Shown piece after piece: positions 3,101 through 24,206 of a stretch of 38,446 bases of DNA. The position numbers and the translations under genes are program-made. Under the pieces are notes generated by a model. That model saw only the letters and a list, made by a program, of their open reading frames with translations. It had not been told where the DNA came from and did no database searches. This DNA comes from Verrucomicrobiota bacterium (lineage in GTDB: Bacteria; Verrucomicrobiota; Verrucomicrobiia; JADLBR01). The stretch's first letter is position 1. Every line of letters begins with the position of its first letter. Location of the stretch: the NCBI GenBank assembly GCA_029560585.1, contig JAKQKQ010000237.1, forward strand, positions 1 to 38,446, given 5' to 3'.

Positions 3101-4270
3101 CTCCAGTCCGGCGACCCTGGCGCACAGCAGCTTGCGGACTTGCGGGAGGGTGCAGGCAGCGAGATAGGAGGCGCAGAGATGCTCCGGATATGAGGCATGA
3201 TCGAACCCGAAACGGTCCTTTCCTCGAGAGCTAAACAGCGGCGTGGCCAAAGTGGCCTCCACCAGATCGTCGGATACCGGAAAGTTGCATCCGTCGACAG
3301 TCTCGGTGCCCACGATGATATCGGTGATGGGCAATTCGCCGGCCGAGGGCGTATCGACACCCCGGATGATCGTGTTCTTTCCCGAAAGCATCAGAAGACT
3401 CGCGATGCGGGCCGCGGTTCGCTCCAGATGCGCGGCGGGTGGCGGCTTTGTGGGCTGGTAGCGCATGCGCCCCGGGTCCCACTCTCCCGCGAGGCGGCGG
3501 ATCGCGCGCCCGAACACCGTCCGATGATCGCTGGGCAGCCGGCCGTTCTGCCGCATCTCCTCAAGGAGCATCCGCAGCGTGATGGGTCTGGCCGCCAGGC
3601 CCTGCGCGCGAATGCGATACACGCCCTCGAGGAAGGCGTCGGAATCGACGCCAGACTCTCTCGCGGCCAACTCGGCATCCTTCCGGCGGAGGTGACAGAG
3701 CTCGTACCTGTGCTCACCCGCGTGCGGCCAGAGCGCGAACAGTTCCGTGTCGCCGGTCGTGTCCCAATCCCAGACGCGGCAGGCCATGATCACGGACACG
3801 CGGTCCAGCGGTTGCTCCCCGAGCCGCCTGACCAGGGTACGAACCAACATGGGGACTCGCGCGAGGGCCTGATCGACGCCATCCATCAGAAGTCGGATGC
3901 GTCGCCCCGACTCGAGGGTCTCCCTCCACGCCTGGGATTCGACAGTTTCGCGCAACAGCGCGCTCGTGGAGTCGATGTCTAGGCAACCTGCAATGATGAG
4001 GGACTCATCGGGCCTCAGCCATTCGGATCTCCGGGCCTGAAGCCGGTCGATTTCGGTGCTCTTCCCGATGCCCGGCTGTCCGCCCAAGACGAGGCACGGG
4101 AGGGAGAGCAGATCGTCGATGGGCCTGACGGCGGGGTTCATGAGAGCGCCGTACTCATCCTCGGGGTCGTCCACGAAGCCTCGCCCTTCGAAACCGCTGT
4201 TAACCGACCCGTCCCACGGGACCCAGAATCGGTGCCACGGCAGGAGTTTGTCGGCGATATATCGCGTCAT
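140..4270 (-). CDS. Giant STAND/NACHT-like NTPase with C-terminal PD-(D/E)XK nuclease
   Basis: A 1376-aa protein. Near the N-terminus a P-loop, GQPGIGKST (about residues 64-72), is followed by a Walker B-like IRLLMDGVD (126-134) and a sensor-like VIMACR (161-166). This is the order seen in NACHT/STAND NTPases. A long, mostly helical middle (about 250-1200) has the look of a superhelical sensor array, but no repeat family could be assigned. The last roughly 100 residues hold LDIKVEA and LVIEVKGSW, giving a plausible D-x(n)-ExK active site (about D1285, E1303, K1305) of a PD-(D/E)XK nuclease. Known family logic: STAND proteins with nuclease effectors (Avs, bacterial NACHT) sense phage products and then degrade DNA. 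The effector here is C-terminal, whereas most Avs nucleases are N-terminal. It is divergent from an M41-like peptidase gene 65 bp away. A defence role is inferred from architecture and context. Confidence 0.75.
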   Translation of the reverse strand: MTRYIADKLLPWHRFWVPWDGSVNSGFEGRGFVDDPEDEYGALMNPAVRPIDDLLSLPCLVLGGQPGIGKSTEIDRLQARRSEWLRPDESLIIAGCLDIDSTSALLRETVESQAWRETLESGRRIRLLMDGVDQALARVPMLVRTLVRRLGEQPLDRVSVIMACRVWDWDTTGDTELFALWPHAGEHRYELCHLRRKDAELAARESGVDSDAFLEGVYRIRAQGLAARPITLRMLLEEMRQNGRLPSDHRTVFGRAIRRLAGEWDPGRMRYQPTKPPPAAHLERTAARIASLLMLSGKNTIIRGVDTPSAGELPITDIIVGTETVDGCNFPVSDDLVEATLATPLFSSRGKDRFGFDHASYPEHLCASYLAACTLPQVRKLLCARVAGLERVAPQLGEVAANLANIHPAWCDYLIGHEPEVLLRSDASGLDPDRKARFVASLLSRAADFKAFDGRHASLFYHSLAHPGLAGQLRPYISDPSHNFLVRRMAIGIAGEAGVSELEADLWARVEANDERLGPIAYALGRLVGPASREPLLRAACGELPDNEGGDIKGVAIQKLVPTIMPVRGILPHIRTKPSRAFIGAYSLVLQSHLPRAMTAQDVPAVAGFIESKTDVFDQRTHLNPLVARAFELGLSNLDDPAIARSLAQLWLKMARGHRPFPNKSSRSGHDPLAALDDPVVRRRLGATVLGLPGATPDDLLDHRVPLIRDEDLGWLLDELPRVATADRQCWVKTCAALCWGRARPAHRALILSRCDEIPELRAELPPCRRHDIVTTMDRLQRASEIRWSRRNARFAKEMECPTRTELLDGVRTAVAEGQNTAWVGFCECAYEEDPDETGARPADHSDIESSPAWLSLAAEERQTFRASARLFLLSHDDRDRPADHWSNFSAAAYHAIRLLRHDMDADQALCAEVFDRWPMVVFDHLGSGGAAERDQVALGCRRAPESACVWIARDLERSHRKGDSSIHWSLFAESWTASLSEVVGGFLDTHPVRCGLFVNAVGFLSQHDPAAALALMNALLRKRGGRFDPLDEVGRGLVVIALFRFPRQFLPRLWPLLEKVSAEELRAIFFAGVEGLRMGGLMNLDEMSDEDLGRMVLMVWRLFPKSKYSDRNDASGLVQARHEIPDFRRGLIAALVARGTPLACDQLQWLSETAPTEDRWLFKWHLHECQENLFRQTWIGFQRTSGEILKMARDHRAALIEDEEDLACAILASLERLQEHLHCAEAPELRALWNEPRRRRGSPEHKSETVLSDTIKDWLNRDLGPPTGIILNREVAATRAARLDIKVEASRHGQDPLTLVIEVKGSWNREAPRAVANQLVARYLKPNRWTHGIMLVGWFGPHRARGRRTGWPASNIRDVTRIVERWCKRQAPDNL

Positions 4271-4335
4271 ATCCCAGGGACACGTTAGGGCCTGCCAGCG
4301 CTCCGGACAAGAGGCTGTGCGTTCTCACGATACGT
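4271..4335. promoter_or_regulatory. Shared divergent promoter region of STAND NTPase and peptidase
   Basis: Only 65 bp separates the start codons of two divergent genes, so promoters for both must overlap here or lie inside the coding regions. I could not identify convincing -35/-10 pairs. The layout itself suggests joint control. Confidence 0.35.
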
Positions 4336-5142
4336 ATGCGGATCGCCTTGACGGTCGAACACCCAGAGGAGAGGCCCCCGTGTCCTGTGGCCCGGCGGCG
4401 CTTTCTTCCCGTGTGGGTTGGTGAGGAAATCTGTTATTGGCCAGCGCCTTGGCCGCTGGTAGAGGCCGAGTACTGGTTTCGGTTGCGGAAAGTTGTTCTG
4501 GACATAGGAGATGGGAAGCGGGATGAGGGACCCTTTTTTACGGCGGTGCATGAATGCGGACACGCGTCGGCGCAGGCGGTCTTGGGCGCGGGGCCGAGGC
4601 AGGTGTGCATCAAGCGTGATTCAGACGGGTGGTCCGGCCAGTCGCTCGCAGATGAGGATGCAAACAGCGACGAAAAGATCGCTCGCCTGTTGGTTGCTGA
4701 GCTGGCTTGGCCCATAGCGCAGATTGCGGTCGCCCCCGGGTCACTGGGCGACCTTTGTGACACATTTCGGGACGCACTTATTGCGCCATCCTTGAACCTT
4801 CTTCGCGCTCCCGACCGACCCCTCAATCGCCTGGGATGGGAAGGAGATTTGAGCCGCAGTGGAGTTGAAGCGCTCGCAAGGTTCGCGGAATCGTGCTGGC
4901 GCGTTGAGTCGCCTTACAACAGGGGCGGGTTCCTCTTTCACGCGGAGAGGGCGCTGTTTGGCGTGTATCGGGCAGAACCGATCCGCGCGGGACTTGTAGA
5001 ACTGGCCACCATCCTCGTGCGAAGGGAGTCGATCGCCTGGGACGCCTTTCGGTCGCTAGCCAGCGAGGTCTTGAAATCTTCCGCGTGGGGGACACTCAGA
5101 TCCCTTGACCTCTCCATCGACCTGTCATCGCTCATCAAATGA
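4336..5142 (+). CDS. M41-like HExxH zinc metallopeptidase
   Basis: A 268-aa protein with the motif TAVHECGHAS. H72, E73 and H76 match the zinc-binding and catalytic HExxH of M41 (FtsH-type) peptidases, in which the segment is typically HEAGHA. A later SLGDLCDT segment (D139) is a possible third metal ligand, comparable to the GxxxDL segment of M41. There is no AAA+ domain, no signal peptide and no membrane helix, so this is a stand-alone cytoplasmic protease domain of unusual type. The ATG at 4336 is the first in frame, and its ribosome site is poor. The gene is divergent from the STAND-nuclease, and its stop overlaps the start of a short downstream frame (ATGA at 5139-5142). A target or activator relationship with the STAND protein is only an inference from position. 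Confidence 0.65.
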   Translation: MRIALTVEHPEERPPCPVARRRFLPVWVGEEICYWPAPWPLVEAEYWFRLRKVVLDIGDGKRDEGPFFTAVHECGHASAQAVLGAGPRQVCIKRDSDGWSGQSLADEDANSDEKIARLLVAELAWPIAQIAVAPGSLGDLCDTFRDALIAPSLNLLRAPDRPLNRLGWEGDLSRSGVEALARFAESCWRVESPYNRGGFLFHAERALFGVYRAEPIRAGLVELATILVRRESIAWDAFRSLASEVLKSSAWGTLRSLDLSIDLSSLIK

Positions 5143-5305
5143 AGGAAAAGGTCCGGCCGCGCAGACGTGGGCATTCCCGGATGATTGTGGAGCCAGATTT
5201 TTGGCGGTTGTTAGTGATCATGCCGACTGCGGCGCGCTGGGCGGTGAGTGACTACAGTGACGTAAAGAGAACCATCGCTCTTGCGAGCGAGTGGTTTCCT
5301 CTCCC
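5139..5305 (+). pseudogene. Truncated gene downstream of the peptidase
   Basis: The reading frame begins with a 4-bp ATGA overlap with the peptidase stop, which is typical of translational coupling. It gives about 55 protein-like residues (MKEKVRPRRRG...FWRLLVIMPTAARW...). From about 5306 the frame continues only through DNA identical to the antisense of the DUF932 3' end and then through the antisense of the protease gene. The likely reading is a real gene whose remainder was removed when the 33-bp repeat and following DNA joined here. The product family is not recognisable from the fragment. An alternative is a chance frame. Confidence 0.4.
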
Positions 5306-5346
5306 CCCTCACGACATCCCGACGACCGCGTCGAAGAGGCCGTGGA
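5306..5346 (-). pseudogene. 3'-terminal remnant of a DUF932 gene (direct repeat, copy 1)
   Basis: Thirty-three consecutive bases (5306-5338) match 13235-13267, followed by one mismatch and seven more matches (to 5346). On the minus strand this encodes HGLFDAVVGMS plus stop, exactly the C-terminus of the intact DUF932 gene at 13238-14011. The single mismatch inside the coding part is synonymous (Gly). Homology stops abruptly on both sides, leaving only the last 11 codons. It marks a recombination junction: the truncated frame of 5139 ends here, and the PEP-CTERM protease gene ends 49 bp further on. Confidence 0.75.
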
Positions 5347-5394
5347 CGATTGGTCACGGCTATTCCAGGAGCACCAGGGCGAGACGGGAATCGA

Positions 5395-6402
5395 CTAGTC
5401 GTGTTTCGGTCGCCGGGCAAACACCAGAGCGAGCGCCATCAGCGCGACGGCATAAGAAAGCGAAGGCTCGGGTATCGTCGCGCGGATCCAGTCATCGAAG
5501 GCGGAGACACGGGTCAGGTAGGTGACGTCGCCGTAGCCGCTGCCATAAGGGCGGGATGGGTCGGTGGGGTTGACGCCCCAGGAGACGATGCCGACCAACT
5601 CGAAGCCATGGCCAAAGTCGGCGAAGGCCGGTCCGCCGCTGTCCCCGCCCGCGCTGGTGCCCTCCAGCACCAAGACGTTGGTCGCGCTGGAGAGCGAGAA
5701 GATGGTGCCATTGGGTATCGAATTCAGCGGATCGCCACCGGTGTCGTAAACTGACGTGCCGTCGAGGGAGTTACGGGCGATGTCCCCGGAGTCGAAGTCG
5801 AGGGCCAAGAGGCCGCTCGCAATGCCGCCCAGGTCCGTGTCCAGCACGCGATCGATGGTGTTGTTGGCCGCATAGAGGGTGGCGGAGGCATTAGGTTGAG
5901 GACCGGTGGCGCCGGTACCTGCGAGGCCCGAGCCGACCAGCGTGATCTGCGACCCCAGCTCATTGGTGCCGGTGTACCAGCTCGCGGGCGCGACCCCGGT
6001 GACGGGAGAGGATAGTTGGAACAGCGCGATGTCCCACCCGTTGCTGGGGGAGAGGGTCGGGTCGGCATCCCAGAGGGGATGGTGGAACCACTGGCCCGAT
6101 TGGGCGGCGATGGTCTGGCCGCCGATGATGAAGCTAAGGTCGGTCACCTCGTCGGCCAGCCAGTTGTGACCCGCGGTGAGCACCCAGTCGGGGGCCACCA
6201 GCACGCCGCTTCCGCGGTAGGAGGAGGCGCCCTCTTGAATCAGCACGCTGCCGGCGGACGGGAAATTCGACGCGAGCGTGGCGGCCCGGGCGAGGGTGAA
6301 ATCCTCGTCGACCACGATGGCGGGGCAAGATGCGGTGGCGAGGAGCACGTGCGCGGCAAATAACCTGACGATGGGTGGCACGTTGCGGGTATAACATAGC
6401 AC
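5395..6402 (-). CDS. Secreted trypsin-like serine protease with PEP-CTERM anchor
   Basis: A 335-aa S1-family protease. The catalytic triad is visible: His79 in LTAGHN, Asp124 in GWDIALF and Ser255 in GGDSGGP. A hydrophobic N-terminal segment (residues 9-27) serves as signal peptide. The C-terminus has the PEP-CTERM layout: IPEPS (310-314), a hydrophobic helix (about 315-329), then ARRPKHD. PEP-CTERM proteins are exported and processed by an exosortase; no exosortase gene is in the window. The ATG at 6402 is used here, but a GTG at residue 8 is an alternative start giving a tighter signal peptide. It is divergent from the SUMF1 operon and lies inside the block bounded by the two DUF932 3'-end repeats. 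Confidence 0.88.
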   Translation of the reverse strand: MLCYTRNVPPIVRLFAAHVLLATASCPAIVVDEDFTLARAATLASNFPSAGSVLIQEGASSYRGSGVLVAPDWVLTAGHNWLADEVTDLSFIIGGQTIAAQSGQWFHHPLWDADPTLSPSNGWDIALFQLSSPVTGVAPASWYTGTNELGSQITLVGSGLAGTGATGPQPNASATLYAANNTIDRVLDTDLGGIASGLLALDFDSGDIARNSLDGTSVYDTGGDPLNSIPNGTIFSLSSATNVLVLEGTSAGGDSGGPAFADFGHGFELVGIVSWGVNPTDPSRPYGSGYGDVTYLTRVSAFDDWIRATIPEPSLSYAVALMALALVFARRPKHD

Positions 6403-13234: not shown

Positions 13235-13275
13235 CCCTCACGACATCCCGACGACCGCGTCGAAGAGCCCGTGGA
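13235..13275. repeat. Direct repeat copy 2 (3' end of intact DUF932 gene)
   Basis: This is the partner of 5306-5346: 33 identical bases (13235-13267), one mismatch, then seven matches. Here the repeat is part of the intact DUF932 gene and its stop codon. The two copies lie in the same orientation about 7.9 kb apart and bracket the protease and SUMF1 operon. Confidence 0.75.
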
Positions 13276-14011
13276 GGGCCTCGCCGCGGCGCAGGGCGCT
13301 ATGGAGGTTGATTTCCCGGTAGACGGCCGTGAAGGCGTTGAACAGTGACCACGCATTCCGGGGTGTGAAGGCGTCGTGCTCCGGGTGCCGCCATTCCTCC
13401 AGGACATCCGGAATCTGGCTGACCGTGATGGCCCGGCAATCGGCCGCACGGATCACGACATCGTGCGCCAGCCAGTCCGGCACCCGGGCCTCCTTGTACG
13501 CGGCCACCCGGGCGTCGAGCGATCGGAAGCGATCGCCCAGTTGCCCGACGGCCCGTGCCACGAGGTGGCGCAGGTCGCGCATGGCGAAGCGGGTGTGCTT
13601 GCGCGAGATCTTCACTTCGCCGGAAAAGCATTTGTTGTCACACACGAGCACGGAAATACCGGCGACGAGGCCGGCCGGAAACGACTGGTCGTGGCTGTTG
13701 CGCAGGCCAACGATCCATTCGTATTCCTCCTCTGTCCTGCCGGGCAGGCTGACGCTCAGCACGCCGAAGTATCTCGCCCCGGCGTGCGACAGCCCGTGCC
13801 TCTCACCCTCGATGGTGAACCCGGTGGCGCCGAGCTGGCCCTCGACCTCCTCGAGTATCGCGCCGTGATCCAGCGGATACCACGTCTTTGAGCCCAGCGG
13901 CGTCGGCACCGCCAGCAGTTCCGCTCGTTCCACCACGCGCCCGCCGCAGTGAAGCAGCAGGCCCTCCGGCGTCCTCCGCCTCGGCGGCTCTTTGACCTCA
14001 ATGATGTTCAT
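13238..14011 (-). CDS. DUF932 phage/plasmid-related protein
   Basis: A 257-aa protein resembling DUF932 proteins, which are common on plasmids and integrated elements and whose molecular role is unclear. Family-like segments include LGSKTWYPLDHGAIL, RYFGVLSVSLPG and VAGISVLVCDNKCFSGEVKISRKHT, followed by a segment near the end that places the protein in a late-gene context (HDAFTPRNAWSLFNAFTAVYRE). The start at 14011 is fixed by an AAAGGAGA ribosome site; the frame is open further upstream but that part is low-complexity. It is the last gene of the minus-strand operon that begins at 16918. Its final 11 codons are duplicated at 5306-5346. Confidence 0.78.
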   Translation of the reverse strand: MNIIEVKEPPRRRTPEGLLLHCGGRVVERAELLAVPTPLGSKTWYPLDHGAILEEVEGQLGATGFTIEGERHGLSHAGARYFGVLSVSLPGRTEEEYEWIVGLRNSHDQSFPAGLVAGISVLVCDNKCFSGEVKISRKHTRFAMRDLRHLVARAVGQLGDRFRSLDARVAAYKEARVPDWLAHDVVIRAADCRAITVSQIPDVLEEWRHPEHDAFTPRNAWSLFNAFTAVYREINLHSALRRGEALHGLFDAVVGMS

Positions 14012-14106
14012 CTTTTGTCTCCTTTCGCTTTTGAATGAAGGTCGCGGGTGTCCATGTGCCATTACTCAGGGGCACGGGATCCCACAACCGGTGTTGTTTG
14101 GAAAAT

Positions 14107-14171: not shown

Positions 14172-14879
14172 TCACAGGTAGCCGGCCGCCTTGAATGAAA
14201 ACCAGCCCTCCGGGTAGGCGGTCGAACGGTTGCCCACGATGACGTGGTCCAGCAGCGGGACGTCGAGCACCTTGGCGGACTCCCGCAGCGCCCGGGTGAT
14301 GCGGATGTCGGCCTCCGATGGAGTCGGATCCCCGGACGGATGATTGTGCGCCAGCACGACCGCGTAGGCCCTCCTGGCGACCGCCGGAGAGAATACCTCC
14401 CTCGCGTGGACCAGCGTCTGATCGAGCAGTCCCTCCGAGACCGCCTCCACGGCGATCAGGTGCAGCTTGGCGTTGAGCAGCACCACCCGGGCGCTCTCGG
14501 TGGGCAGCAGGCGCATCTCCGGGCCGACCAGGTCCGCGATCCGGCCCGCGTCGTCGAGTTTGGTGGCACTTGCCGCGCGACGGTTGAGGCGCACGCCCAG
14601 CTCGACGGCGGCGCGGATGCCCGCAGCCCTGGCCTCACCGACACCGCGCACGGTGGCCAGTTCGGCCAGGGGCGCTCGCGCGACGCCCGCCAGGCCGCCG
14701 AAGCGGGCCAGCAGGGCCTCGGCGATCTGCAGCGACGCTTGCCCGGTGCCATTGGGCATCAGGCAGGCGAGCAGCTCGGCGTCCCCGAGGGCGCCGGCGC
14801 CCCGCTCCATCAGGCGATTCCTGGGCCTCTGGTCGGGCGGCATCTCGCGCAGCGTCACTTGTGACACGTCATCGATCAT
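14172..14879 (-). CDS. RadC/JAB-domain protein
   Basis: A 235-aa RadC-family protein. The N-terminal helix-hairpin-helix region (about 1-95) includes ATVRGVGEARAAGI. The C-terminal JAB/MPN domain has the metal-binding motif LAHNHPSGD (H178, H180, D184). The start at 14879 follows a perfect AAAGGAGG site. Despite the name, RadC is not established as a DNA repair enzyme; RadC-like genes are very frequent on plasmids and genomic islands and are often neighbours of DUF932 and antirestriction genes. That fits this operon. Confidence 0.9.
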   Translation of the reverse strand: MIDDVSQVTLREMPPDQRPRNRLMERGAGALGDAELLACLMPNGTGQASLQIAEALLARFGGLAGVARAPLAELATVRGVGEARAAGIRAAVELGVRLNRRAASATKLDDAGRIADLVGPEMRLLPTESARVVLLNAKLHLIAVEAVSEGLLDQTLVHAREVFSPAVARRAYAVVLAHNHPSGDPTPSEADIRITRALRESAKVLDVPLLDHVIVGNRSTAYPEGWFSFKAAGYL

Positions 14880-14966
14880 GCGCGACCTCCTTTCTGGTTG
14901 TGTGTTGTTTGATTGGCGACCCGTCAACCGGCGTGGCCGGTCACAGGATCGCCGTTTGAAATTTCC

Positions 14967-15245: not shown

Positions 15246-15434
15246 TCAGCCGCCCCTTCCGGGCCGACCCCAGCGCTCGAGCACCGCCCACGTGACCACC
15301 CCGACCACGAGCACGATGGCGATGGGGATGAGGGCGGGCGTGAGGACCAGCAGCAATATCGCCGCGGCGGTGAGCAGCATCAGCCCGGCCGTCGCCCCGA
15401 GGGTCCACCTCGGCAGCGGATCCTGGTCATCCAT
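15246..15434 (-). CDS. Small two-helix membrane protein
   Basis: A 62-aa protein with an acidic N-terminus (MDDQDPLPRW) and a long hydrophobic stretch (about 13-50) that can form two membrane helices, ending in an Arg/Gly-rich tail. The start overlaps the end of the upstream lipoprotein-like gene by 8 bp and is preceded by AAAGGGGGG. The role is unknown; it sits in the element's recombination operon. Confidence 0.6.
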   Translation of the reverse strand: MDDQDPLPRWTLGATAGLMLLTAAAILLLVLTPALIPIAIVLVVGVVTWAVLERWGRPGRGG

Positions 15435-15594
15435 GGCGCCCCCCTTTCCACGAGATCGCGACGATGAAGGCCGCGACCACGATCGCCAGGCCGATGACGC
15501 TCAGGCCGCCGCCCACCGGCCCCATGTCAGGAGGGCCGGCCGGCGTGCATGCGGCCAGCAGCGCCGGCGCGAGGAACATGGCGGCGCGCCTCAT
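15427..15594 (-). CDS. Small lipoprotein-like membrane protein
   Basis: A 55-aa protein beginning MRRAAMFLAPALLAACTP. A signal sequence ending in a lipobox-like LLAAC suggests lipidation at Cys16. A second hydrophobic helix (about 32-48) follows. The start overlaps the stop of the nuclease gene by 4 bp (15591-15594), and its own stop overlaps the next gene. The size and lipobox recall small entry-exclusion or lysis lipoproteins of mobile elements, but no function can be assigned. Confidence 0.55.
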   Translation of the reverse strand: MRRAAMFLAPALLAACTPAGPPDMGPVGGGLSVIGLAIVVAAFIVAISWKGGRHG

Positions 15595-16421
15595 GGCGCA
15601 CCCCCGGTCCACGCTGAACACTCGTCGCGGTACTGGCACCAGCCGCACTGCATGCCGGGCGACGGGTTGAACCTGCCCTCGGCGATGCCGTTGACGGCGG
15701 CATCGAGCATCGCGACCGCCCGGTCTTTCCTTGCGTCGTTGGGGGGCGGCACCGAGACGCGGACCACCTGGGGCGATTTGGTCTTCACCAGATGGACTAG
15801 CTCCATCCGGGGCGGCGTCTCGCCCGTGGCGGCCTCCAGCAGCAGCGCGTAGGCCACCAGCTGCAATTCCGCGTCGAACGCGGCCTGATCGGGATCGGGG
15901 CGGCTGGATGCGGTCTTGAAGTCCACGACTTTCAGGTCGTGGCACACCAGATCGATCGTCCCGCAGAGCGGCACGCCGAGACCGGGCACCATTTCTTCAA
16001 GCGTCACCTCGACGCCCCGCGGTCGCTCTTTCGGCATCTCGCCGCTGTCCATGTAGGCGGCCAGCAGCCGCAGGCCGTCCTTCTTCGCCTTGTCGCGGTC
16101 CTCGGTCCCGTCGAAGGCCACCGGGCCCTCGTCGGCCTCCAGCGCGTCGAACGCGCTGGCATACGCCCTCTCGACGGCCGCGGGCGAGGTGTCCCCGCCG
16201 CGCCAGAGCGCCGCGTGCAGGTGCCTGAGCCCGGCGTGGACCGCCTTGCCCAGGTGCAGCGCCGCGGCCACCGGCCTGGCGATGCAGGCCACGCGCTCGA
16301 AGTAGAAGCGCAGCCCGCACGCCAGGTAGCCGCGTGCCGCGGTCGCCGAGATGTGCGCCGGCAATCCGCCATTGCCCGTCGTGGTGCCGGCCGGCGGCGC
16401 CAATGTCGAGGGGGCGATCAT
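15591..16421 (-). CDS. Cas4/RecB-like PD-(D/E)XK nuclease with Fe-S cysteines
   Basis: A 276-aa protein. The RecB-family nuclease motifs appear in order: ISATAARGYLACGLRFYFERV (N-terminal cysteine C35), LGKAVHAGL (His62), GTIDLV (D157), VVDFKTAS (D167, K169) and ELQLVAYALL (Q187, Y191). The C-terminal CGWCQYRDEC (C259, C262, C268) with C35 makes the four-cysteine iron-sulfur cluster pattern of Cas4 and AddB-type nucleases. No cas1/cas2 or CRISPR array is present, so this is a stand-alone exonuclease of a mobile element. The start at 16421 overlaps the upstream stop by 4 bp, which suggests tight coupling with that gene. Confidence 0.82.
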   Translation of the reverse strand: MIAPSTLAPPAGTTTGNGGLPAHISATAARGYLACGLRFYFERVACIARPVAAALHLGKAVHAGLRHLHAALWRGGDTSPAAVERAYASAFDALEADEGPVAFDGTEDRDKAKKDGLRLLAAYMDSGEMPKERPRGVEVTLEEMVPGLGVPLCGTIDLVCHDLKVVDFKTASSRPDPDQAAFDAELQLVAYALLLEAATGETPPRMELVHLVKTKSPQVVRVSVPPPNDARKDRAVAMLDAAVNGIAEGRFNPSPGMQCGWCQYRDECSAWTGGAP

Positions 16422-16918
16422 GCCGCCCCCCTCGCATAGGCGTTGCGCCGGGGACGACGGTTGCCGTTGGAGCGTCCGCCGTTGCCGCCGTGTTTCTCCA
16501 GCAGCTCGTCGATGAGACCACTGGCCTCCAGCTTGCCCAGTTCCCGGACGCGCTTGTTGAAACGCTCCCGGGCCAGGGCCTCCACATCGGCCGGTTGTAG
16601 GTGGTGCTCGTCGACCAGCTTGAGGATGAGATCCCGCTGCCTGTCGCTGCACTTCCACGGGGCCTCGGTCGGCTCCTGCCCGTCCGTCTCGCCGTTGCCG
16701 CCCTCGCCGTTGAGCCCGTAGCCGTGGGGCGGGACGAATCCCGTCGCCACGATCTGCGAGTCCACAGACTGCTGGAGCAGCCGGTAGAGCCTTTGGGACT
16801 CCCCGGCCGCGTCGGCCACGTTCGCGATCTCGCATTCGACCGAGACGGCGAACTGATGACTGCTGTATGCGGGCAGCCCTAGGCGCTTGCTGTAATTCGC
16901 GATCAGCTTCACTGCCAT
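16418..16918 (-). CDS. Hypothetical protein, possible recombination partner of the nuclease
   Basis: A 166-aa protein, first gene of the operon. The N-terminal part (MAVKLIANYSKRLGLPAYSS, to about residue 65) is compact and beta-like. After a Gly/Asn/Glu-rich linker there is a helical segment beginning CSDRQRDLILKLVDEHHL and ending ASGLIDELLEKHG. This resembles the short 'x-S-x-x-Q-x-x-L-I ... S-x-L-I-x-x-L' helical module seen at the C-terminus of many phage recombination or ssDNA-handling proteins. The tail is basic (RSNGNRRPRRN). An AAGGAGAA site fixes the start at 16918. Coupling to a RecB/Cas4-like nuclease suggests a DNA-processing pair; that is inference. Confidence 0.65.
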   Translation of the reverse strand: MAVKLIANYSKRLGLPAYSSHQFAVSVECEIANVADAAGESQRLYRLLQQSVDSQIVATGFVPPHGYGLNGEGGNGETDGQEPTEAPWKCSDRQRDLILKLVDEHHLQPADVEALARERFNKRVRELGKLEASGLIDELLEKHGGNGGRSNGNRRPRRNAYARGAA

Positions 16919-17242: not shown

Positions 17243-18133
17243 ATGGCACACCCAGCTAAATACCTGCGGTACACGGACAGAATGAATCTCGACAAGGCGG
17301 TCCACACTCTGGAGGGCATCCTCAGGGGCATCGCGATTGATTCCGTCATCACCGAGGCCGAGGCACGCGAACTGATCCGCTGGCGGGACGAGCACCTTGA
17401 ATTCGCGCGGCGTCACCCATTCACGGAGATCATGCCCAAACTGGACGCCGCGCTGCAGGACGGCGTCATCAGTGACGAGGAGAAAGAAGACCTGTTGTGG
17501 GTGTGCAGCAATCTTCACACCGGCAATGCCTACTACGACGCACTGACCTCTGACATTCAGCGTCTGCACGGCCTGCTGCATGGCTTGCTCGCCGACGGCG
17601 TTCTGGATGACGAGGAGATCCGGAGGCTTGCGGACTGGGCGAACGAGAACCAGCACCTCAAGGGATGCTACCCGTTTGACGAGATCGACAGCGTCGTCAC
17701 CGCCATTCTCGCCGATGGGAAGATCGAGGAACTGGAGCGACTCCAGCTAAAAGCGTTCCTGGAGGATTTTGTCACCGTGGAAGGGGCGGCACCAGAGGGG
17801 ATCGGGACGCGTCATCTTGCGGTGTCCGGGGTCTGCGCCATGTGTCCTGAGATCAGTTTCGACGATAAATCCTTCTGCCTTACGGGTGAGTCCCGTAAAG
17901 CCAGTCGCGATGAGATAGCCCGCCGCGTGGAGGCCGTCGGGGGAAGAGTGATCGGCAATATCCGAGAGGATCTCGACTACCTCATCGTCTGCGCCGAAGG
18001 CAATCGCTGCTGGGCCTTCTCCTGCTACGGGCGGAAGGTGGAGAAGGCCGTGGAGTACCGCAGGAAAGGCGCGCGCGTTGTCATCGCGCACGAGAACGAC
18101 TTGTGGGATGCCATCGCCGACAAAGGGGCGTAA
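17243..18133 (+). CDS. BRCT-domain protein with helical EF/TerB-like N-terminus
   Basis: A 296-aa protein. The first 185 residues contain three similar helical units, each with an acidic turn (ITEAEARELIRW, ISDEEKEDLL, LDDEEIRRLADW), giving a TerB-like or EF-hand-like look. A linker with CAMCP follows. The C-terminal BRCT domain (about 203-290) has the typical SFCLTGES, GGRVIGNIREDLDYLIVC, KVEKAVEYRRKGARVVIAHENDLW pattern, as in the BRCT of NAD-dependent DNA ligase. BRCT domains bind phosphopeptides or DNA ends. The ATG at 17243 has AAAGGA upstream; the ATG 39 nt later is an alternative. It converges on the Shango operon. A link with the TerB-containing Shango protein is possible but unproven. 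Confidence 0.8.
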   Translation: MAHPAKYLRYTDRMNLDKAVHTLEGILRGIAIDSVITEAEARELIRWRDEHLEFARRHPFTEIMPKLDAALQDGVISDEEKEDLLWVCSNLHTGNAYYDALTSDIQRLHGLLHGLLADGVLDDEEIRRLADWANENQHLKGCYPFDEIDSVVTAILADGKIEELERLQLKAFLEDFVTVEGAAPEGIGTRHLAVSGVCAMCPEISFDDKSFCLTGESRKASRDEIARRVEAVGGRVIGNIREDLDYLIVCAEGNRCWAFSCYGRKVEKAVEYRRKGARVVIAHENDLWDAIADKGA

Positions 18134-18223: not shown

Positions 18224-20479
18224 TCACTTCCCAGAGGTGTGCGGCGTATCGCCTGCCGCCTCGCGCGCGCCATCCACGTCTAGGACCTCGGCCGCGAAGG
18301 CTTCGCGCAACAGGGAGTCGGGGACGTACGGGTCGAATCGGTCTCGCGCGGGCTCGTCGGCCAACTCGGCGAGGCGGGCGGCGTCGAAGGTCCCGGTGGC
18401 CACCCTTCGGCGGTGCTCCTCGAAATCCTCCGCCGAGATCTTTTTGTACTGCAGGCGGAGATCATCCCGATCGACGTCGATCTCGTCGGCCTTGGCGCAG
18501 AGTTCCAGCGTCAGCAACGCCCGGCCCCCGCGCCAGGGGAACCACTGGATGAACGAGGTGCCCGAGAGCACATCGCTCGAGCCGAGGCCGGATCGGGCGA
18601 AGTTACCCCGGGCCGTGGCCAGCAGATCACAGCCGCTCTTTCCCAGATATGGGGGGATGCCGGAGTCCGCCAGCACCTGGCGCATGCGGGCCGCCACGAC
18701 GGGATGCATGAAGCCGACACCCCCACTGAACTTGGGTTGCTTCCATCCTTTTCCGGGAACAACGCCGATCCGCCGCGTCGAATGGTCGATCCAAAGAACC
18801 TTCCATCGTCTTCCCCCGAGCAAAAGAAATTCGCCCTGTCCCGGGATGGAGTCCTCCGGAAGGAGACCGATGGGCTGGCCGTCGCACTCGACCCGGTACT
18901 CTATCCGCCCCGCGAAGGCGGCATAAAAATCGTAGGACTCGACAATGCGTTCGCCGCCGGGCGCGAGGATCAGCTCGCCGGTAGGGACCTGCTCGATCAG
19001 GCCAGCCGACGCGATGCCCCTGAGCAGCGATGCGAACCTCGGCCGGTCGATGAGCCGGAACGCGCCGCGGTGGCAGAGGACATCGTAGATGTGATCAGCC
19101 GCGGCCCCGCCCGTCTGGCGAAGTAGGCTCAGGATCTGGTGCACGCACGTGCTGAAGTGGAAGCGCGGCGCCAACGGTGGCTCCAGCCAGCCCTCGAGCA
19201 TGAGATCCACCAGGGCCACGGCCCGAACGAGGCGCGGGTAGAGCCGGTCGGTCAGTGTCGACGACTCATTGGGCAGACGGTCGAGCGTGTAGAGGCGGAG
19301 GATTCGGGCCTCGCCCTCCTTCCGTCCAGAACGGCCGAGGCGCTGCACGAGCGAGGCGACAGACCAGGTTGGCCCCACCTGACCGATGGCGCGCACCGAG
19401 CCGATATCGATGCCCATCTCCAGCGTGCTGGTGCAGATCGCTGTGACCGGTTTGCCGGACTTCAGTTCGGCCTCGGCGTCCTCCCGCAATTCACGGCTGA
19501 GCGACCCGTGGTGCAAGAGGAACGGATTCCTGGGCCAAGATTCCCGCTCGGAGATCTGGCGCAGCTTGTCGCCAAGCAGCTCGACCTGCCGCCGACTATT
19601 GCAGAAAACCAGGTTCGTCTCATCGCGAAAGCGCGATGCGATGTCCGAGGCGATCTCGCCAAGCCCATCTGGCGTCGGTGTGTGGCCGGCATTGGCCGCA
19701 GCGCCAGGTCCGATCGGGGAGGGCTGCGCAGCGACAGTGTCCACTTCCCCGTCCCCGTCGCCATCGTTTGGATCCGAGCCCTCGAGATGGGCGCGGACGC
19801 CCACCTTGAGATCCCTCCCTTCTCCCTCGGCCCGGATCACGCGGACGCGCCCAGGATCGTCCGGGCGCAGGAACTGGCGCGCCGGCGCGAAATCCCCGAT
19901 GGTGGCGGACAGGCCCAGCCTGCGCGGCGTGGCTCCCGAGATTATCTCCAGGCGCGCCAGCAAGCTGCGCAGGTGCATGCCGCGGACGTCGTCGAGAAAC
20001 GCGTGCAACTCGTCTATCACCACGAACCTCAGCCGCGAATAGACGCGCGCGAGATGTTCGCCGTAGTTGACGAATTGGCTCTCGAGGGATTCCGGGGTGA
20101 TGAGCAGCACGCCGCTCGGGTGCCGCCGCAACTTGGCCTTCTGGGCGGCCCCGACGTCGCCGTGCCAGCGGTGCACCGGGATGTCGGCGCTCTCGCAGAG
20201 GTCCTCCAGCCGCCGGAATTGGTCGTTGATCAGCGCCTTGAGGGGGCTGACGTACAGCGCCCCGACCGATCCCCCCGGATCACCGACCAGGAGCGATAGG
20301 ATCGGGAGGAACGCGGCCTCGGTCTTCCCGCCCGAGGTGGCCGCGGCGAGGATGATGTCCCCGTCGCCATCCAGCACCGCGCCGATGGCTTCGACCTGCA
20401 GGGGCCACAGCTCGTTCCACCGGAGGTCCCAGATGGCCTCTTGGATCTTCCGGTCGAGCCTAGAGAAAGCCTCGCTCAT
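18224..20479 (-). CDS. sngC: Shango helicase SngC: Lhr-like SF2 DNA helicase
   Basis: A 751-aa superfamily 2 helicase. Motifs visible: I (ATSGGKT, 47-53), II (IDELHAF, DELH at 156-159), III (LSATIGD, 190-196), a HHGSLSRE segment (323-330), V (TSTLEMGIDIGSV, 350-362) and VI (QRLGRSGR, 379-386). The TSTLEMGIDIG form is characteristic of the Lhr-type clade. The C-terminal half (about 400-751) holds a winged-helix-like and Lhr-like extension. The start at 20479 lies 11 bp after the ATPase stop; the open frame extends upstream only as antisense or offset reading of that gene. In Shango systems (TerB protein, ATPase, helicase) the helicase is required for phage defence. The match to Shango rests on domain content and order. 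Confidence 0.85.
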   Translation of the reverse strand: MSEAFSRLDRKIQEAIWDLRWNELWPLQVEAIGAVLDGDGDIILAAATSGGKTEAAFLPILSLLVGDPGGSVGALYVSPLKALINDQFRRLEDLCESADIPVHRWHGDVGAAQKAKLRRHPSGVLLITPESLESQFVNYGEHLARVYSRLRFVVIDELHAFLDDVRGMHLRSLLARLEIISGATPRRLGLSATIGDFAPARQFLRPDDPGRVRVIRAEGEGRDLKVGVRAHLEGSDPNDGDGDGEVDTVAAQPSPIGPGAAANAGHTPTPDGLGEIASDIASRFRDETNLVFCNSRRQVELLGDKLRQISERESWPRNPFLLHHGSLSRELREDAEAELKSGKPVTAICTSTLEMGIDIGSVRAIGQVGPTWSVASLVQRLGRSGRKEGEARILRLYTLDRLPNESSTLTDRLYPRLVRAVALVDLMLEGWLEPPLAPRFHFSTCVHQILSLLRQTGGAAADHIYDVLCHRGAFRLIDRPRFASLLRGIASAGLIEQVPTGELILAPGGERIVESYDFYAAFAGRIEYRVECDGQPIGLLPEDSIPGQGEFLLLGGRRWKVLWIDHSTRRIGVVPGKGWKQPKFSGGVGFMHPVVAARMRQVLADSGIPPYLGKSGCDLLATARGNFARSGLGSSDVLSGTSFIQWFPWRGGRALLTLELCAKADEIDVDRDDLRLQYKKISAEDFEEHRRRVATGTFDAARLAELADEPARDRFDPYVPDSLLREAFAAEVLDVDGAREAAGDTPHTSGK

Positions 20480-20490
20480 GCGCCCCGGCG

Positions 20491-21840
20491 TTACAGCTTG
20501 AAGGTCGCCAGGTCGCCATCCTCTTCGTCCGGGGCCGGTGCGGCCCCCGAGGCGAGTTCCTCCTCCACCGATGCGGGGGCGGCGGGCTTCTGGAACACGT
20601 CCCCGCCAAGCAGGTCCCGCCAGCCGCGCCCGGGATTCTGTTCCAGGAGGTTCAGGAGGCCGATGAAGGACCGCACCACGTCGCGCGGCGTCCGGAAAAA
20701 CTCCGCCCCCAATGTCTCGTTCGCGCGCTGCAGCACCGCGGCGACCGCCTCGTCTGGCACGAGGACCTTTGCCGGGTCGCCGTGGGCGTGGACCAGCGCG
20801 ATGTTCTTGAGGAGCACGAACAGGTCCTCCGGGGTCAGCGGCTGAAGCCGCACCATCGGACCCGAGAGATCCACCAGCCCCCCGGCCCTGGCCAGGGCGT
20901 TCTCCGCGAGGCGGCTGCGGAGCGCCTCGTAGCTGAAGAGGCCGCGTCGCCGGTCCTCGAGGCACTCGTCGGTGCCGGCCAGCACGAAGCCGAGGCCGAT
21001 CGCCGTGCCCTGCAGGCAATCGTTGAGGAGGCTCAGCAGTGCCTCGTAGTTGGCCTGGCGCGCCCTGGAGCTCGGGAGCCGGTGCGAGAGCACCACCATC
21101 TCGTCGAGGTTCACCAGCAGGCCGCCGAAACCCGCCTTCCTGACGAAGGCCGCCATGAGCCTGAGGCTGCCGTAGAGGGACTCGTCATCGATGATGCGCC
21201 TCACGCCCAGGTCGGCTTTCGCGTCCGTCTTGGTGGTGTACTCCGCGCGCAGCCAGCGGAGCGCGGCGGCCTGCTTTGCCTCGTCCCCGGCGACGTGTGC
21301 CCTGTAGAACGCACGCACGACCTCCGCGAACTCGAATCCCCCGACGTGTGTTTGGAGATCGCGGAGCTGTTCGGCTATCCGTCCCTCGACATCGCCGACC
21401 GAGCCCCCGGCGCCCATGACCTCGTGCTGCAGGCCCGAGACCCAGCCGGCCAAGATCGAGGGCAGCGCGCCCCCGTCGGGCTGAGTCCGGGTGGCGAGGT
21501 TGGCCATCAGCTCCGCGTAGAGGGCCCGCGCCTGGCCGCCCGTCGCGCAGAGGCGGCGCTCCATGGTGAAATCCGCCTGGGCCACCACCAGCTTCTTCTG
21601 GAAGGCGACGTTTCTGACGAGATTGAGGAAGAAACTCTTGCCGCTGCCAAATCTCCCTACGACGATGCGGAACGCCGCGCCGCTGTCGGTGATGCGCTCG
21701 ATGTCCGACAGCATCGCCGAGACCTCGGCCTTCCGGCCCACCTGTATCAGGTGCAGGCCCTGTTTGGGGACTAGGCCCGCTTGGAGCGATAGCAGGATGG
21801 CGTCGCGCTCGCGGCGCTTCATTGAAATGCGTGTGCTCAT
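20491..21840 (-). CDS. sngB: Shango ATPase SngB (BrxD/DUF2791-like)
   Basis: A 449-aa P-loop ATPase of the DUF2791/BrxD type. Walker A is VGRFGSGKS (61-69) and Walker B is LLVNLDEMVVL (D246, E247). Segments typical of the family include RRIIDDESLYGSLRLMAAFVRKAGF, FVLAGTDECLEDRRRGLFSYEALRSRL and FFRTPRDVVRSFIGLLN. The C-terminal 50 residues are an acidic, proline/alanine-rich tail. The start at 21840 is set by AGGAG with a 5-nt gap. BrxD proteins work with a helicase in BREX type 2; here the ATPase sits between a TerB protein and an Lhr-like helicase, as in Shango. Spacing to both neighbours is 11 bp, so a single transcript is likely. Confidence 0.85.
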   Translation of the reverse strand: MSTRISMKRRERDAILLSLQAGLVPKQGLHLIQVGRKAEVSAMLSDIERITDSGAAFRIVVGRFGSGKSFFLNLVRNVAFQKKLVVAQADFTMERRLCATGGQARALYAELMANLATRTQPDGGALPSILAGWVSGLQHEVMGAGGSVGDVEGRIAEQLRDLQTHVGGFEFAEVVRAFYRAHVAGDEAKQAAALRWLRAEYTTKTDAKADLGVRRIIDDESLYGSLRLMAAFVRKAGFGGLLVNLDEMVVLSHRLPSSRARQANYEALLSLLNDCLQGTAIGLGFVLAGTDECLEDRRRGLFSYEALRSRLAENALARAGGLVDLSGPMVRLQPLTPEDLFVLLKNIALVHAHGDPAKVLVPDEAVAAVLQRANETLGAEFFRTPRDVVRSFIGLLNLLEQNPGRGWRDLLGGDVFQKPAAPASVEEELASGAAPAPDEEDGDLATFKL

Positions 21841-21851
21841 ATTCTCCTCTG

Positions 21852-24206
21852 TCAGTTGGATGAGCCCGCCCCCGCCATCACCGGCAGCAGGGACCGGAAC
21901 ACCCGGACGTTTTCTCCCCTCTCCAGCAGGAAGTCGCCGAAGTGCTCGTCGGACCACGCGTTGACGGCATCCAGGACGTCGTCCGGCAACAGGTGCTGCC
22001 TCTTGCAGAGTCCCTCGAAATCATCGAGGTCGATCTCGTCGTGGGCAACGAGCGTCGTGACGACCGGCCGGTACCGCTCAGCGAGGCCCTCGATCCATGG
22101 CGCGTCGATGGGCGCCTGCGCTGCGCCCGGCGTCGCATGCTCTTTGGATTTGCTCTCGACCTTGACCTCCGCTGACCCCTCATCGGCCATGACCTCCGAC
22201 AGCATGGCGATGACCTGCCTCGTCTCCTCCGTGAGGGCGCGGATGCGTTCGCTGTCGAGCGAGAGCACCGCCCCGGCGGCCGCGGGCCTAGGCGGGATCC
22301 GTTCGCCTTTCGCGCCCTTGCCGGCGGTCGCCACGGTGACTTCGCGGAGCGATCCATCGCCCTCCAGCAGCGAATCCACCGCATCGGGCGGTAGCCCGAA
22401 CGCTCTTGCGATCCGTCGCAGGAGCTTGATCTCGGGGAGACTGATTTCCCGGTCGGCGGCGGCGATGTGCGCCAGCGACCGCAGCACCTGCTCCCGATGC
22501 TCGGGCGAGATCAGCTTCGCCAGCTGGGGAAGGCAGCGCACGGCGACGTTGGTGTCCCTGCGGAGGGCGGCGGTGGCGTCGCGGACGCGCTCCCAGTCGG
22601 CCTCCCCGGGGAGGTCGGCTTTGACGAGGGTCTCGAAAGTGGCCAACTCCTCGTCCTCGATGACGCCGTCGGCGGCCGCCAGCATCACGGCCAGATGCAG
22701 CAGGCGGATCACGCCGGCCAAGTGCCCCGGCGCACCGTCGTCCGAATCGGTCGGGCGAAGCGCCACCTCCTGCGACCATGCCAGGGGCAATCCGCTCTGC
22801 CGCGGATCGGGGGCCATACGCCACCCCAGCTGTCGGGCCAGCTCGGCCACCTGTTTGGACTGCGCCAGGGTCAGGCGTGCCCTCTCATCGACGCCCGCCA
22901 TCGCCGCGATCTGGCCGGAGGGCAGAAAGGCGAGATCCCCTTCCCGGGGCGCGGAGCCGAGCAACCCATCGAAGGCGTCGCGGAGCGGGTGGGCCTCGCC
23001 CGCCCGCAGCTCCGGCGGGAGCGCCTGCCACGTCGCGATCTTGGCCGCATCGCCAACTTTCTTTGAACCCAGGGCCCGGCTGTAGCCCGCGAGATCGTCG
23101 ATGCAGCGATTCCAGATCTCCGGGAGCGCCCGGAACTGCCGCCGAAGGCCCAGGACATTGGGTATCCGCTCGTGCAGGGCGCGGGCCGCAGCACTCTCTC
23201 GGCAGGCGGAGAGCAGCGCACCGCTGGCGGGCCGGTACTCGACGGTCGCCGGCTGCTTGGCCGCCGCGAGCGGCATGCCGCCCGGGGCGATCTCCTCAAA
23301 TCGCTGCCGGAACAGTTCCCAGAACTTCTCGCGCGTTCGGGCAACGACCGCGCTCTTGCGGCTGTCCTCATCGATGAGCGCGAGCCGGTAGGCCACCGTC
23401 CAATCCATGACCTCGCCGCGCTGGTGGAGATTGCCCAGCACAAACCGGAGGGAGTCCTCGTCCGGCCGATCCCCGTCGAGCTCGAGCAGCTGCGGCCAGA
23501 ATGCCCTGTAGGACTCCTGCCCCAGCCTCCATCCGGAAAAATGCAGAAGCTGCAGGCAGTAGTTCTGGAGCGACACAGACCGATGCGCCGGCCCGTAGAG
23601 CTGCAGGAGGCGCAGCACCTCGCCCATCAGAGTCGGCTGAAGGTCGCCGTCCAGCAGCAGGCGACGCTCGATGCCGTAGAAGAACAGGAAGACATAGCCC
23701 AGTTCCCGGGCCGCCGGGTCGGCGTCGGATCGTCCGGAGGCCAGCCACTCCAGATAGGTTCGCCGCTGGGCGGGTGTGATCCCCAGAAAACTCGGGTAAT
23801 ACCCCAGTCCCACAGCGGGATCTTCCGCGACGGCGTCAATCGGCTGGGTCAGGTCGAGCGCCGAGGGTTCCCCCGGCCAGGGCAGTTCCCCGGTCGAGAC
23901 GTAGACCATCCCATCGGGGATCGTGAGCCCATCGAGGGTCAGGGGCTGGCCCTGGGGATACCAGACGAGTTCCGCGCACCGCTTGCGGGCGGACGCAGGC
24001 CGGGGGGGGCGCATTTCCGGCGATTCGAAATGAGCGGGACATCTCATATGGGAGTGTCGAGGGGGGATGATGACCTGATCCGCTCCACGGGAGGCACGAA
24101 ATAGTCCACCGACCAGATAAACAAGAGCAAACCCCACAAAGGCTGCAAGCCCGCCGCCAATGGGCCAGAGTACCGCCGCGAACACCAGCGCCAAGATCCA
24201 CCGCAC
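21852..24206 (-). CDS. sngA: Shango TerB-domain protein SngA, membrane-anchored
   Basis: A 784-aa protein. An N-terminal hydrophobic stretch (about 1-37) predicts one or two membrane helices. A TerB-N-like domain follows (about 100-330: LVWYPQGQPLTLDGLTIPDGMVYVSTG, GYYPSFLGITPAQRRTYLEWL, GYVFLFFYGIERRLL). A TerB domain lies at about 510-610 (AVMLAAADGVIEDEELATFE, LAHIAAADREISLPEIKLLRRIA) and a TerB-C domain at about 650-780. The start is GTG at 24206; a strong AAGGAGG lies inside the 3' end of the channel gene, one base separates that stop from this start, and coupling is expected. TerB proteins are associated with membrane complexes and phage or tellurite stress. Role here: the first canonical Shango component, probably anchoring the ATPase and helicase at the membrane. 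Confidence 0.83.
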   Translation of the reverse strand: MRWILALVFAAVLWPIGGGLAAFVGFALVYLVGGLFRASRGADQVIIPPRHSHMRCPAHFESPEMRPPRPASARKRCAELVWYPQGQPLTLDGLTIPDGMVYVSTGELPWPGEPSALDLTQPIDAVAEDPAVGLGYYPSFLGITPAQRRTYLEWLASGRSDADPAARELGYVFLFFYGIERRLLLDGDLQPTLMGEVLRLLQLYGPAHRSVSLQNYCLQLLHFSGWRLGQESYRAFWPQLLELDGDRPDEDSLRFVLGNLHQRGEVMDWTVAYRLALIDEDSRKSAVVARTREKFWELFRQRFEEIAPGGMPLAAAKQPATVEYRPASGALLSACRESAAARALHERIPNVLGLRRQFRALPEIWNRCIDDLAGYSRALGSKKVGDAAKIATWQALPPELRAGEAHPLRDAFDGLLGSAPREGDLAFLPSGQIAAMAGVDERARLTLAQSKQVAELARQLGWRMAPDPRQSGLPLAWSQEVALRPTDSDDGAPGHLAGVIRLLHLAVMLAAADGVIEDEELATFETLVKADLPGEADWERVRDATAALRRDTNVAVRCLPQLAKLISPEHREQVLRSLAHIAAADREISLPEIKLLRRIARAFGLPPDAVDSLLEGDGSLREVTVATAGKGAKGERIPPRPAAAGAVLSLDSERIRALTEETRQVIAMLSEVMADEGSAEVKVESKSKEHATPGAAQAPIDAPWIEGLAERYRPVVTTLVAHDEIDLDDFEGLCKRQHLLPDDVLDAVNAWSDEHFGDFLLERGENVRVFRSLLPVMAGAGSSN

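Follow-up and report, generated by a model that had tools for sequence, protein, structure and literature searches.

A Cas4-type nuclease and its overlapping partner gene as a candidate two-component recombination module of Verrucomicrobiota integrative islands

The locus and its gene layout

The window considered here, that is, the whole stretch of 38,446 nucleotides that was analysed, is a contig (C183) of a Verrucomicrobiota genome of 7.06 Mb in 336 contigs. Its central features are the gene of a Cas4-type nuclease and, upstream of it, the gene of a small partner protein. They are followed by several small genes and by two genes of named families, as listed below.

16418-16918, minus strand: partner gene, 166 aa (P0002), from the open reading frame (ORF) and its translation
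16418-16421, minus strand: ATGA, the nuclease start overlapping the partner stop (TGA), read from the sequence
15591-16421, minus strand: Cas4-type (RecB-family, four-cysteine) PD-(D/E)XK nuclease, 276 aa (P0001)
15427-15594, minus strand: small predicted lipoprotein/membrane protein, 55 aa, its start overlapping the nuclease stop (15591-15594)
15246-15434, minus strand: second small membrane protein, 62 aa
15014-15232, minus strand: further small ORF
14172-14927, minus strand: RadC family protein (Pfam and NCBIfam), with a probable ATG start inside the listed ORF
13238-14062, minus strand: DUF932-like protein (Pfam, E 0.001, below the cut-off)

The first-pass annotation of this DNA had described a Cas4-like nuclease whose start overlaps the stop of a partner gene, and both genes are indeed found in that place, with ATGA as the shared bases on the minus strand. 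An AGGAG-like site lies just 5′ of the partner ATG, and third-position GC is 0.90 in the nuclease ORF and 0.85 in the partner ORF. The two small membrane genes (15246-15594, minus strand) are chained by overlaps to the nuclease gene, and the first of them has a lipobox-like start. A similar pair of small membrane proteins is retained at another locus (L094) where the nuclease is lost.

Genes of other kinds occupy further parts of the window. A Shango-type defence operon (18224-24206, minus strand) lies next to the pair and was recognised with PADLOC profiles for SngA, which has TerB domains (E 3.3e-52), for the BrxD-like SngB (E 1e-157), and for the helicase SngC (E 3.2e-230). Divergent from the pair, a gene with TerB-like and BRCT domains (17243-18133, plus strand) matches phrog_3989 (E 2.4e-79) and the candidate defence family PDC-S48. 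A replication-protein-like gene (34641-35765, minus strand; REP_ORF2-G2P, E 1.9e-8) and a DUF5131 gene (32617-33873) are perhaps of mobile-element origin. A protein of 1376 aa (140-4270, minus strand) has an N-terminus that by eye is nucleotide-binding-like, and no Pfam or PADLOC profile matches it.

The nuclease belongs to PF12705, which it matches with 103.9 bits (E 1.7e-29) against a curated Pfam cut-off of 22. It had been credited with all RecB motifs and four cysteines, and this is borne out by an alignment of 28 rows in which C35, C259, C262, C268, D157, D167, K169, and Q187 are invariant. Rough patterns for the same features are widespread in 100 long nuclease ORFs (CxxCx5C in 99, D..DxK in 97, the glutamine in 97, the N-terminal cysteine in 85). 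The NCBIfam equivalog for CRISPR Cas4 (TIGR00372) is matched with 43.5 bits, below its 65-bit cut-off. Among solved structures, profile comparison relates it to MGME1 (mitochondrial genome maintenance exonuclease 1) and to the nuclease domains of UvrD/Rep-type helicases. In PADLOC, it matches DruK nuclease profiles (best E 4.6e-10) and Cas4 profiles at least as well.

Both genes are under purifying selection (dN/dS 0.14-0.28). The nuclease has a dN/dS of 0.138 between the window and a second copy in the same genome (contig C184) and of 0.176 between the window and locus L065, and the latter comparison gives 0.278 for the partner. As the pair recurs across Verrucomicrobiota with values in this range, it is not a chance arrangement.

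Conservation of the pair and its genomic setting

A profile search found the nuclease downstream of the partner in 75 of 81 loci, some of them cut by contig ends. These are 80 named loci and one further locus (L064); the named ones are the best 80 of 200 relatives and hence lean to the window's own clade. Three of the other six (L116, L120, and L128) stop within 229 bases. The nuclease is truly absent in three others: at L094 and L124, the next cassette follows the partner directly, whereas at L097 (10001-11179) the partner frame runs into DUF3150-like sequence, probably as the result of a deletion. The pairing is therefore dominant, not absolute.

A sample of the phylum gives a comparable picture. 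It consists of the best loci only, 28 for the partner and 29 for the nuclease besides those of the window's own genome, and leaves aside long ORFs (about 1000 aa) that match the nuclease weakly. The nuclease lies directly 3′ in 21 of the 28 partner loci, and the partner lies directly 5′ in 26 of the 29 nuclease loci. The three other nuclease loci are two in which the nuclease frame is in pieces (L046 and L061) and one at a contig edge (L060). The seven partner loci that have no nuclease of this kind comprise a fragment (L029), four loci of one genus, Akkermansia as judged by sequence likeness (L015, L016, L017, and L033), one more locus (L023), and L027, where a different nuclease-like ORF with a weak cas4 match (E 0.0026) follows the partner. 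The first-pass annotation had proposed constant pairing as the check on its idea and partner homologues without the nuclease as the finding that would speak against it. The pairing holds in most loci (75 of 81, and 21 of 28 in the phylum sample) but is not constant, since copies without the nuclease exist at L015-L017, L023, L027, L033, L094, L097, and L124.

The overlap itself is also widely kept. With the loci of the window's own genome (L001-L006) and duplicate pairs left out, the nuclease start can be placed so as to overlap the partner by exactly 4 nt in 88 of 105 pairs (73 ATGA, 13 GTGA, and 2 TTGA), and the nearest nuclease start falls within -8 to +30 of the partner end in 102 of 104. 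The locus thus presents the adjacent, overlapping, and conserved gene pair that is looked for in a two-component recombinase.

The distribution of the pair is patchy. Of the 288 genomes in the phylum sample, 24 were found to carry the partner and 55 the nuclease; 18 contain both, against about 4.6 expected if the two were independent. Among genomes drawn by kinship, the partner occurs in 7 of 57. Its nearest named relative, among the relatives listed, is 78% identical and comes from a metagenome-assembled genome of Verrucomicrobiia. The labels of the best 80 of 200 relatives are Verrucomicrobiota or subgroups of it, except for one locus each from Chlorobiaceae (L121) and Acidobacteria (L128). 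One of the carriers is the culturable Haloferula sp. BvORR071 (L073). Searches of phage and plasmid collections with two members as tblastn queries found no partner. The same kind of search in IMG/VR gave one partner locus (L064), and none with the second-clade query; the first 90 residues of the ORFs of L064 revealed no plain phage structural gene, and its viral label was not used.

The gene order occurs a second time in the same genome, on contig C184, with 89% nucleotide identity over the pair and 80% over the stretch from RadC to DUF932. Two small hydrophobic ORFs are present there as well. The partner reading frame is interrupted in this copy, which is therefore either decayed or misassembled.

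Neighbouring genes were surveyed in 83 loci (the 81 loci and the two copies of the window's own genome), each family being named from one representative. The most frequent neighbours are DUF3150 (26 loci), DUF932 (23), DUF1257 (23), an AAA ATPase (21), and an unnamed small protein (21), followed by a DNA-polymerase-clamp-like protein (20), WGR with DNA-ligase (16), DUF2997 (13), integrase-like (10), HTH (9), and RadC (9) proteins. A recurring cassette 3′ of the pair (L066-L144) contains DUF3150, DUF1257, DUF2997, a small ORF, and the AAA ATPase (Ycf35/Ycf46-like), its members being present in 13-26 of the 83 loci.

An iterated profile search of these 83 loci and five more, all from one genome (G128), detected integrase-like ORFs in 27 of the 88, and in 24 of the 27 the ORF lies upstream on the same strand; it ends within 700 nt of the partner in 8 of 73 loci. 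Support from the Pfam phage-integrase family is clear at L105 (E 1.8e-18) and weak at L236, L237, and L240, and the ORF found by the integrase profile at L238 has none.

The genome G128 (3.8 Mb in 2 contigs) is instructive for the setting of the pair, as it carries five copies with a core of 93-98% nucleotide identity. The upstream limit of the core lies 141-961 bases before the partner and its downstream limit 1.85-3.8 kb after the partner start; outside it, the copies were found to share only short stretches of 423 bases or less. It contains the partner, the nuclease, and two small membrane ORFs in all five copies, together with DUF932, which is a diverged version at L237. Each copy is preceded by an integrase-profile ORF, with about 143 bases between its end and the partner in four of them and about 650 in the fifth, and these ORFs differ between copies. 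The cargo also varies, with a type III restriction subunit and a DNA methylase at L236, and an AAA_15-type ATPase and a DNA methylase at L238. The identity of L237 to three of the other copies drops from 95-98% to 71-75% at about +1.85 kb. Taken together, this suggests that the pair belongs to the invariable core of related integrative islands, a family of elements which swap integrase and cargo and whose cores would recombine too. That the pair is element-encoded, as had been proposed from the window, is favoured by 24 of the 88 loci, in which an integrase-like ORF precedes the pair in the same orientation, and by the five G128 loci, which share little but the core.

The partner protein and a proposed recombination module

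The partner (P0002) has no match in Pfam, PHROG, or NCBIfam at E 0.01 and none in PADLOC; no RecT, Erf, Rad52, or Red-beta profile of Pfam, PHROG, or NCBIfam matched it. An AlphaFold2 model built from 35 rows (mean pLDDT 78.3, pTM 0.40 for the whole protein) predicts a beta-beta-alpha head at residues 3-58 (strands 3-15 and 18-31, helix 34-58), a low-confidence linker at about 60-90, and a three-helix tail at 92-143 (helices 92-104, 109-120, and 129-143). Modelled alone with 67 rows, the head again gives two strands and one helix, with a mean pLDDT of 88.6. The odd two-part structure with a recombination-protein-like helical tail, earlier read from the letters, is thus recovered in the model as head, linker, and tail, the best match of the tail by VIA-align being the C-terminal domain (CTD) of Red-beta.

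In Foldseek, six Red-beta CTD chains match the tail with probabilities of 0.87-0.98 and rmsd 1.6-2.1 over 57-58 columns; they stand at ranks 4-12 with E of only 0.6-1.4, and three unrelated chains with probabilities of 0.08-0.30 have lower E. In VIA-align, three Red-beta CTD entries (6m9k, 8tg7, and 8tfu) come top with Z 8.0, 7.6, and 7.5 over 59-63 residues, where helical bundles with Z under about 13 may share a mere common arrangement; the next row is a match of the head (Z 5.2), and the next tail row has Z 4.8. The predicted tail therefore superposes on the three-helix bundle of the Red-beta CTD, a likeness of fold that does not imply homology. Sequence homology of the tail to Red-beta was considered and rejected: hhalign, comparing the 35-row partner profile with the lambda protein (the Red-beta relatives being 99-100% identical to lambda's), gave a 23-column match outside the CTD with a probability of 1.6%. 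The tails of some relatives have matches of their own, to phrog_11717 (E 5.7e-5, L027) and to the RecT-like annealing family phrog_4171 (E 0.0028, L055), both on the C-terminal side of those profiles; among the partner relatives, no tails other than those of L055 and L024 match a RecT-like PHROG (E 0.0028 and 0.05). The L027 and L055 matches lend weak support to the tail as a phage recombination module.

For the head, solved structures offer no specific fold match: LptE, actin-capping protein, and RAD52 appear together at Z 4-5, and RAD52, at Z 4.1, is tied with unrelated folds. The core of the Rad52 superfamily, in the part of PMC9870868 that describes it, is a three-stranded sheet with helices alpha3 and alpha2. 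The head model, with two strands and one helix, is smaller than the core given there, and a sheet formed by an oligomer is possible. On sequence profiles and models, the partner does not appear to be a recognisable Rad52-fold protein. Five ERF-named viral models occur among the 50 fold matches listed for the full-length partner but are given no weight here, because the aligned part is not given and the superposition is poor (rmsd 13-22). A search for solved structures by sequence gave beta-lactamases and other chance-like rows (best E 0.019), which were likewise set aside.

The gene order invites comparison with lambda Red. In lambda, bet (32025-32810) and exo (31348-32028) follow each other in the same order as the pair and with the same 4-nt overlap. 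The likeness thus consists of a partner upstream of the nuclease, the overlap, and a three-helix tail resembling a CTD that docks on exonuclease and SSB. The pair differs from lambda Red in that the partner has 166 aa and no detectable Rad52/RecT annealing domain; the nuclease, with its four cysteines, belongs to the Cas4/AddB kind and not to that of lambda exo. The design is therefore Red/RecET-like with a different nuclease class, and the partner was found nowhere described in the literature searched. The Red-beta CTD is reported to bind lambda exonuclease and SSB, the contact with SSB being needed for recombination in vivo, in the relevant part of PMC8303780. A precedent on an integrative element is offered by SXT-Bet and SXT-Exo of the ICE SXT, homologues of lambda Bet and Exo which, in the passages of PMC3118119 that concern them, are suggested to repair or process the element. 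They share with the present pair the combination of an exonuclease and a single-strand partner on an integrative element, whereas profile searches and hhalign found no homology of the pair to lambda Bet/Exo.

In view of the order and overlap of lambda bet-exo, the Red-beta-like tail, and the SXT precedent, the pair can be read as a resection nuclease with a strand-loading partner. That it is a two-component DNA recombination module (resection and strand loading) on Verrucomicrobiota integrative islands is proposed here with moderate confidence. The two genes are kept together in a fixed order and under purifying selection, mostly with a 4-nt overlap and often near recombination or replication genes. 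According to this proposal, the Cas4-type nuclease would trim DNA ends and expose single strands. The partner, made alongside the nuclease, would dock on it and/or on SSB through the Red-beta-CTD-like tail, and its beta-beta-alpha head would coat or deliver the exposed strand for annealing with a homologous copy. The element itself would be the likely beneficiary, through its repair, circularisation, or exchange, a use that has also been proposed for SXT Bet-Exo. The partner would then be a functional counterpart of Red-beta, not a detectable relative, with only the tail module alike. The earlier suggestion of an exonuclease with an ssDNA-annealing or adaptor protein finds partial support: the adaptor half gains from the Red-beta-CTD-like tail, whereas annealing by the partner is conjectural, its modelled head having fewer strands and helices than the Rad52 core.

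Cas4-like nucleases outside CRISPR have been surveyed by Hudaiberdiev et al. (2017, PMC5704561), who, in the parts of the survey that deal with them, state that the functions of element-borne Cas4 are unknown and urge experiments on solo Cas4. The Solo-Cas4 and MGE-Cas4 of that survey resemble the present nuclease as Cas4-like pfam12705 nucleases outside CRISPR, partly on mobile elements. Its pfam12705 section covers UvrD fusions, links to COG1205 helicases, and phages, and this partner is not described in that section; neither Verrucomicrobia nor RecT is mentioned in its main text. No description of the pair was recognised in the literature searched, a search with most subscription journals outside its scope. 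The near-constant overlapping partner with a Red-beta-like docking module makes the function of an element-borne Cas4 directly testable. If the present reading is right, the pair would provide a tool for recombination that derives from Akkermansia and relatives and may be of use in them; it would also illustrate how a common recombination core persists in integrative islands whose integrase and cargo are exchanged.

Other explanations weighed

A different role for the partner, as a mediator handing single strands to the RecA of the cell, would make the pair a minimal RecBCD/AddAB-like resection and loading unit. This explanation is less probable, and it draws on a group of phages. One of the clearest look-alikes of the head among predicted viral proteins is A0A2D2W2J4 (123 aa; Foldseek probability 1.00, E 0.04-0.06, TM 0.73 by query), which by its length is DLP05_061 of phage DLP5, an assignment of UniProt entry to gene that rests on this length. 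DLP05_061 is followed immediately by a RecA-like gene and, about 1.6 kb on, by the gene of a four-cysteine exonuclease. The order small protein, RecA position, resolvase position, exonuclease, and RuvC position was found in 6 of 6 phage records examined, RecA being annotated in three and assigned by place and length in the other three. By local profile comparison, the two heads align end to end (P 0.004 versus 0.065 for a RecA-family control), and the window-type nuclease aligns with the phage exonucleases (P 0.0019); the head is also too small for a full Rad52 fold. However, the head profile, with a score of 20.4, ties with the best of 100 column shuffles (the full-length profile gives 20.7 versus 19.0 for its best shuffle), and the RecA control is as high in a global-mode run, with 13.6 versus 12.9 for the small phage protein. 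Because the head profile does no better than its best shuffle, the link between the partner head and the DLP5 small protein is suggestive. Moreover, no RecA is found among the annotated recurring neighbours of the pair. The DLP5-type module has a small protein of similar predicted beta-beta-alpha fold near a four-cysteine exonuclease, but unlike the partner this protein ends after the head and has no tail; the genes that follow it begin with RecA, and the exonuclease comes third among them.

Within the proposed recombination module, the partner might tentatively be regarded as the founder of a new minimal strand-handling family, in which a head of about 60 residues (beta-beta-alpha) and a Red-beta-like docking tail replace a whole Rad52-fold annealing protein. 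Such a head may also occur in uncharacterised phage proteins whose genes lie beside those of RecA and Cas4-like exonucleases. Cas4-type nucleases outside CRISPR would in that case have a definite function, serving recombination modules of mobile elements as their exonuclease.

An anti-phage or anti-MGE defence unit, with a solo Cas4-type nuclease guided by an adaptor, is rather unlikely. The pair adjoins the Shango system with its SngA, SngB, and SngC profiles, two G128 loci have restriction-modification-like cargo, the C184 copy stands beside CRISPR-Cas, and P0001 matches DruK profiles. Against this, the defence genes are variable, the annotated recurring neighbours belong to recombination, replication, and unknown families, and the Cas4 profiles are matched at least as well as DruK.

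An end-processing role of the nuclease in integration, excision, or transfer by a tyrosine recombinase, without homologous recombination, is improbable; the partner would then be only a localisation or stability factor, perhaps membrane-tied via the two small proteins. Of 93 loci, 42 have small hydrophobic ORFs after the nuclease, and 26 have two or more, whereas control positions 2.5 kb on, which were not deduplicated, have them in 3 of 56; loci with less than 650 nt downstream and duplicates were left out of this count. These ORFs would fit such an arrangement, as would the same-strand upstream place of the integrase-like ORF in 24 of the 27 loci having one. On the other hand, 61 of 88 loci have no integrase-like ORF, though many of them are short or cut, and tyrosine recombinases are not known to require an exonuclease.

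The absence of cas genes and of an array, noted earlier for this DNA, applies to the window, where no CRISPR array is present and no cas1 or cas2 was found among the 20 ORFs scanned with Pfam, helicases matching Cas3 weakly; it does not extend to the genome. On C184, the pair begins less than 400 bp after a CRISPR array of 11 repeats, and cas4/cas1-type and Cas8a1-type genes precede it. The stretch just 5′ of this second copy (729-5910, L006) contains Cas8a1/Csx13 and the cas4/cas1-type gene, the latter probably broken, as its listed ORF has only 377 aa and the match is partial. A CRISPR link as a general feature was rejected: among L001-L144 and the window, a simple array detector found arrays only at C184, L117, and L134, the latter two 9-10 kb from the pair. 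That the nuclease is a Cas4 serving CRISPR adaptation in trans is accordingly very improbable despite the nearby array on C184 and its match to the cas4 profile, as arrays are confined to those three loci, the cas4 score is below the cut-off, and C184 already holds a gene above it (74.3 bits).
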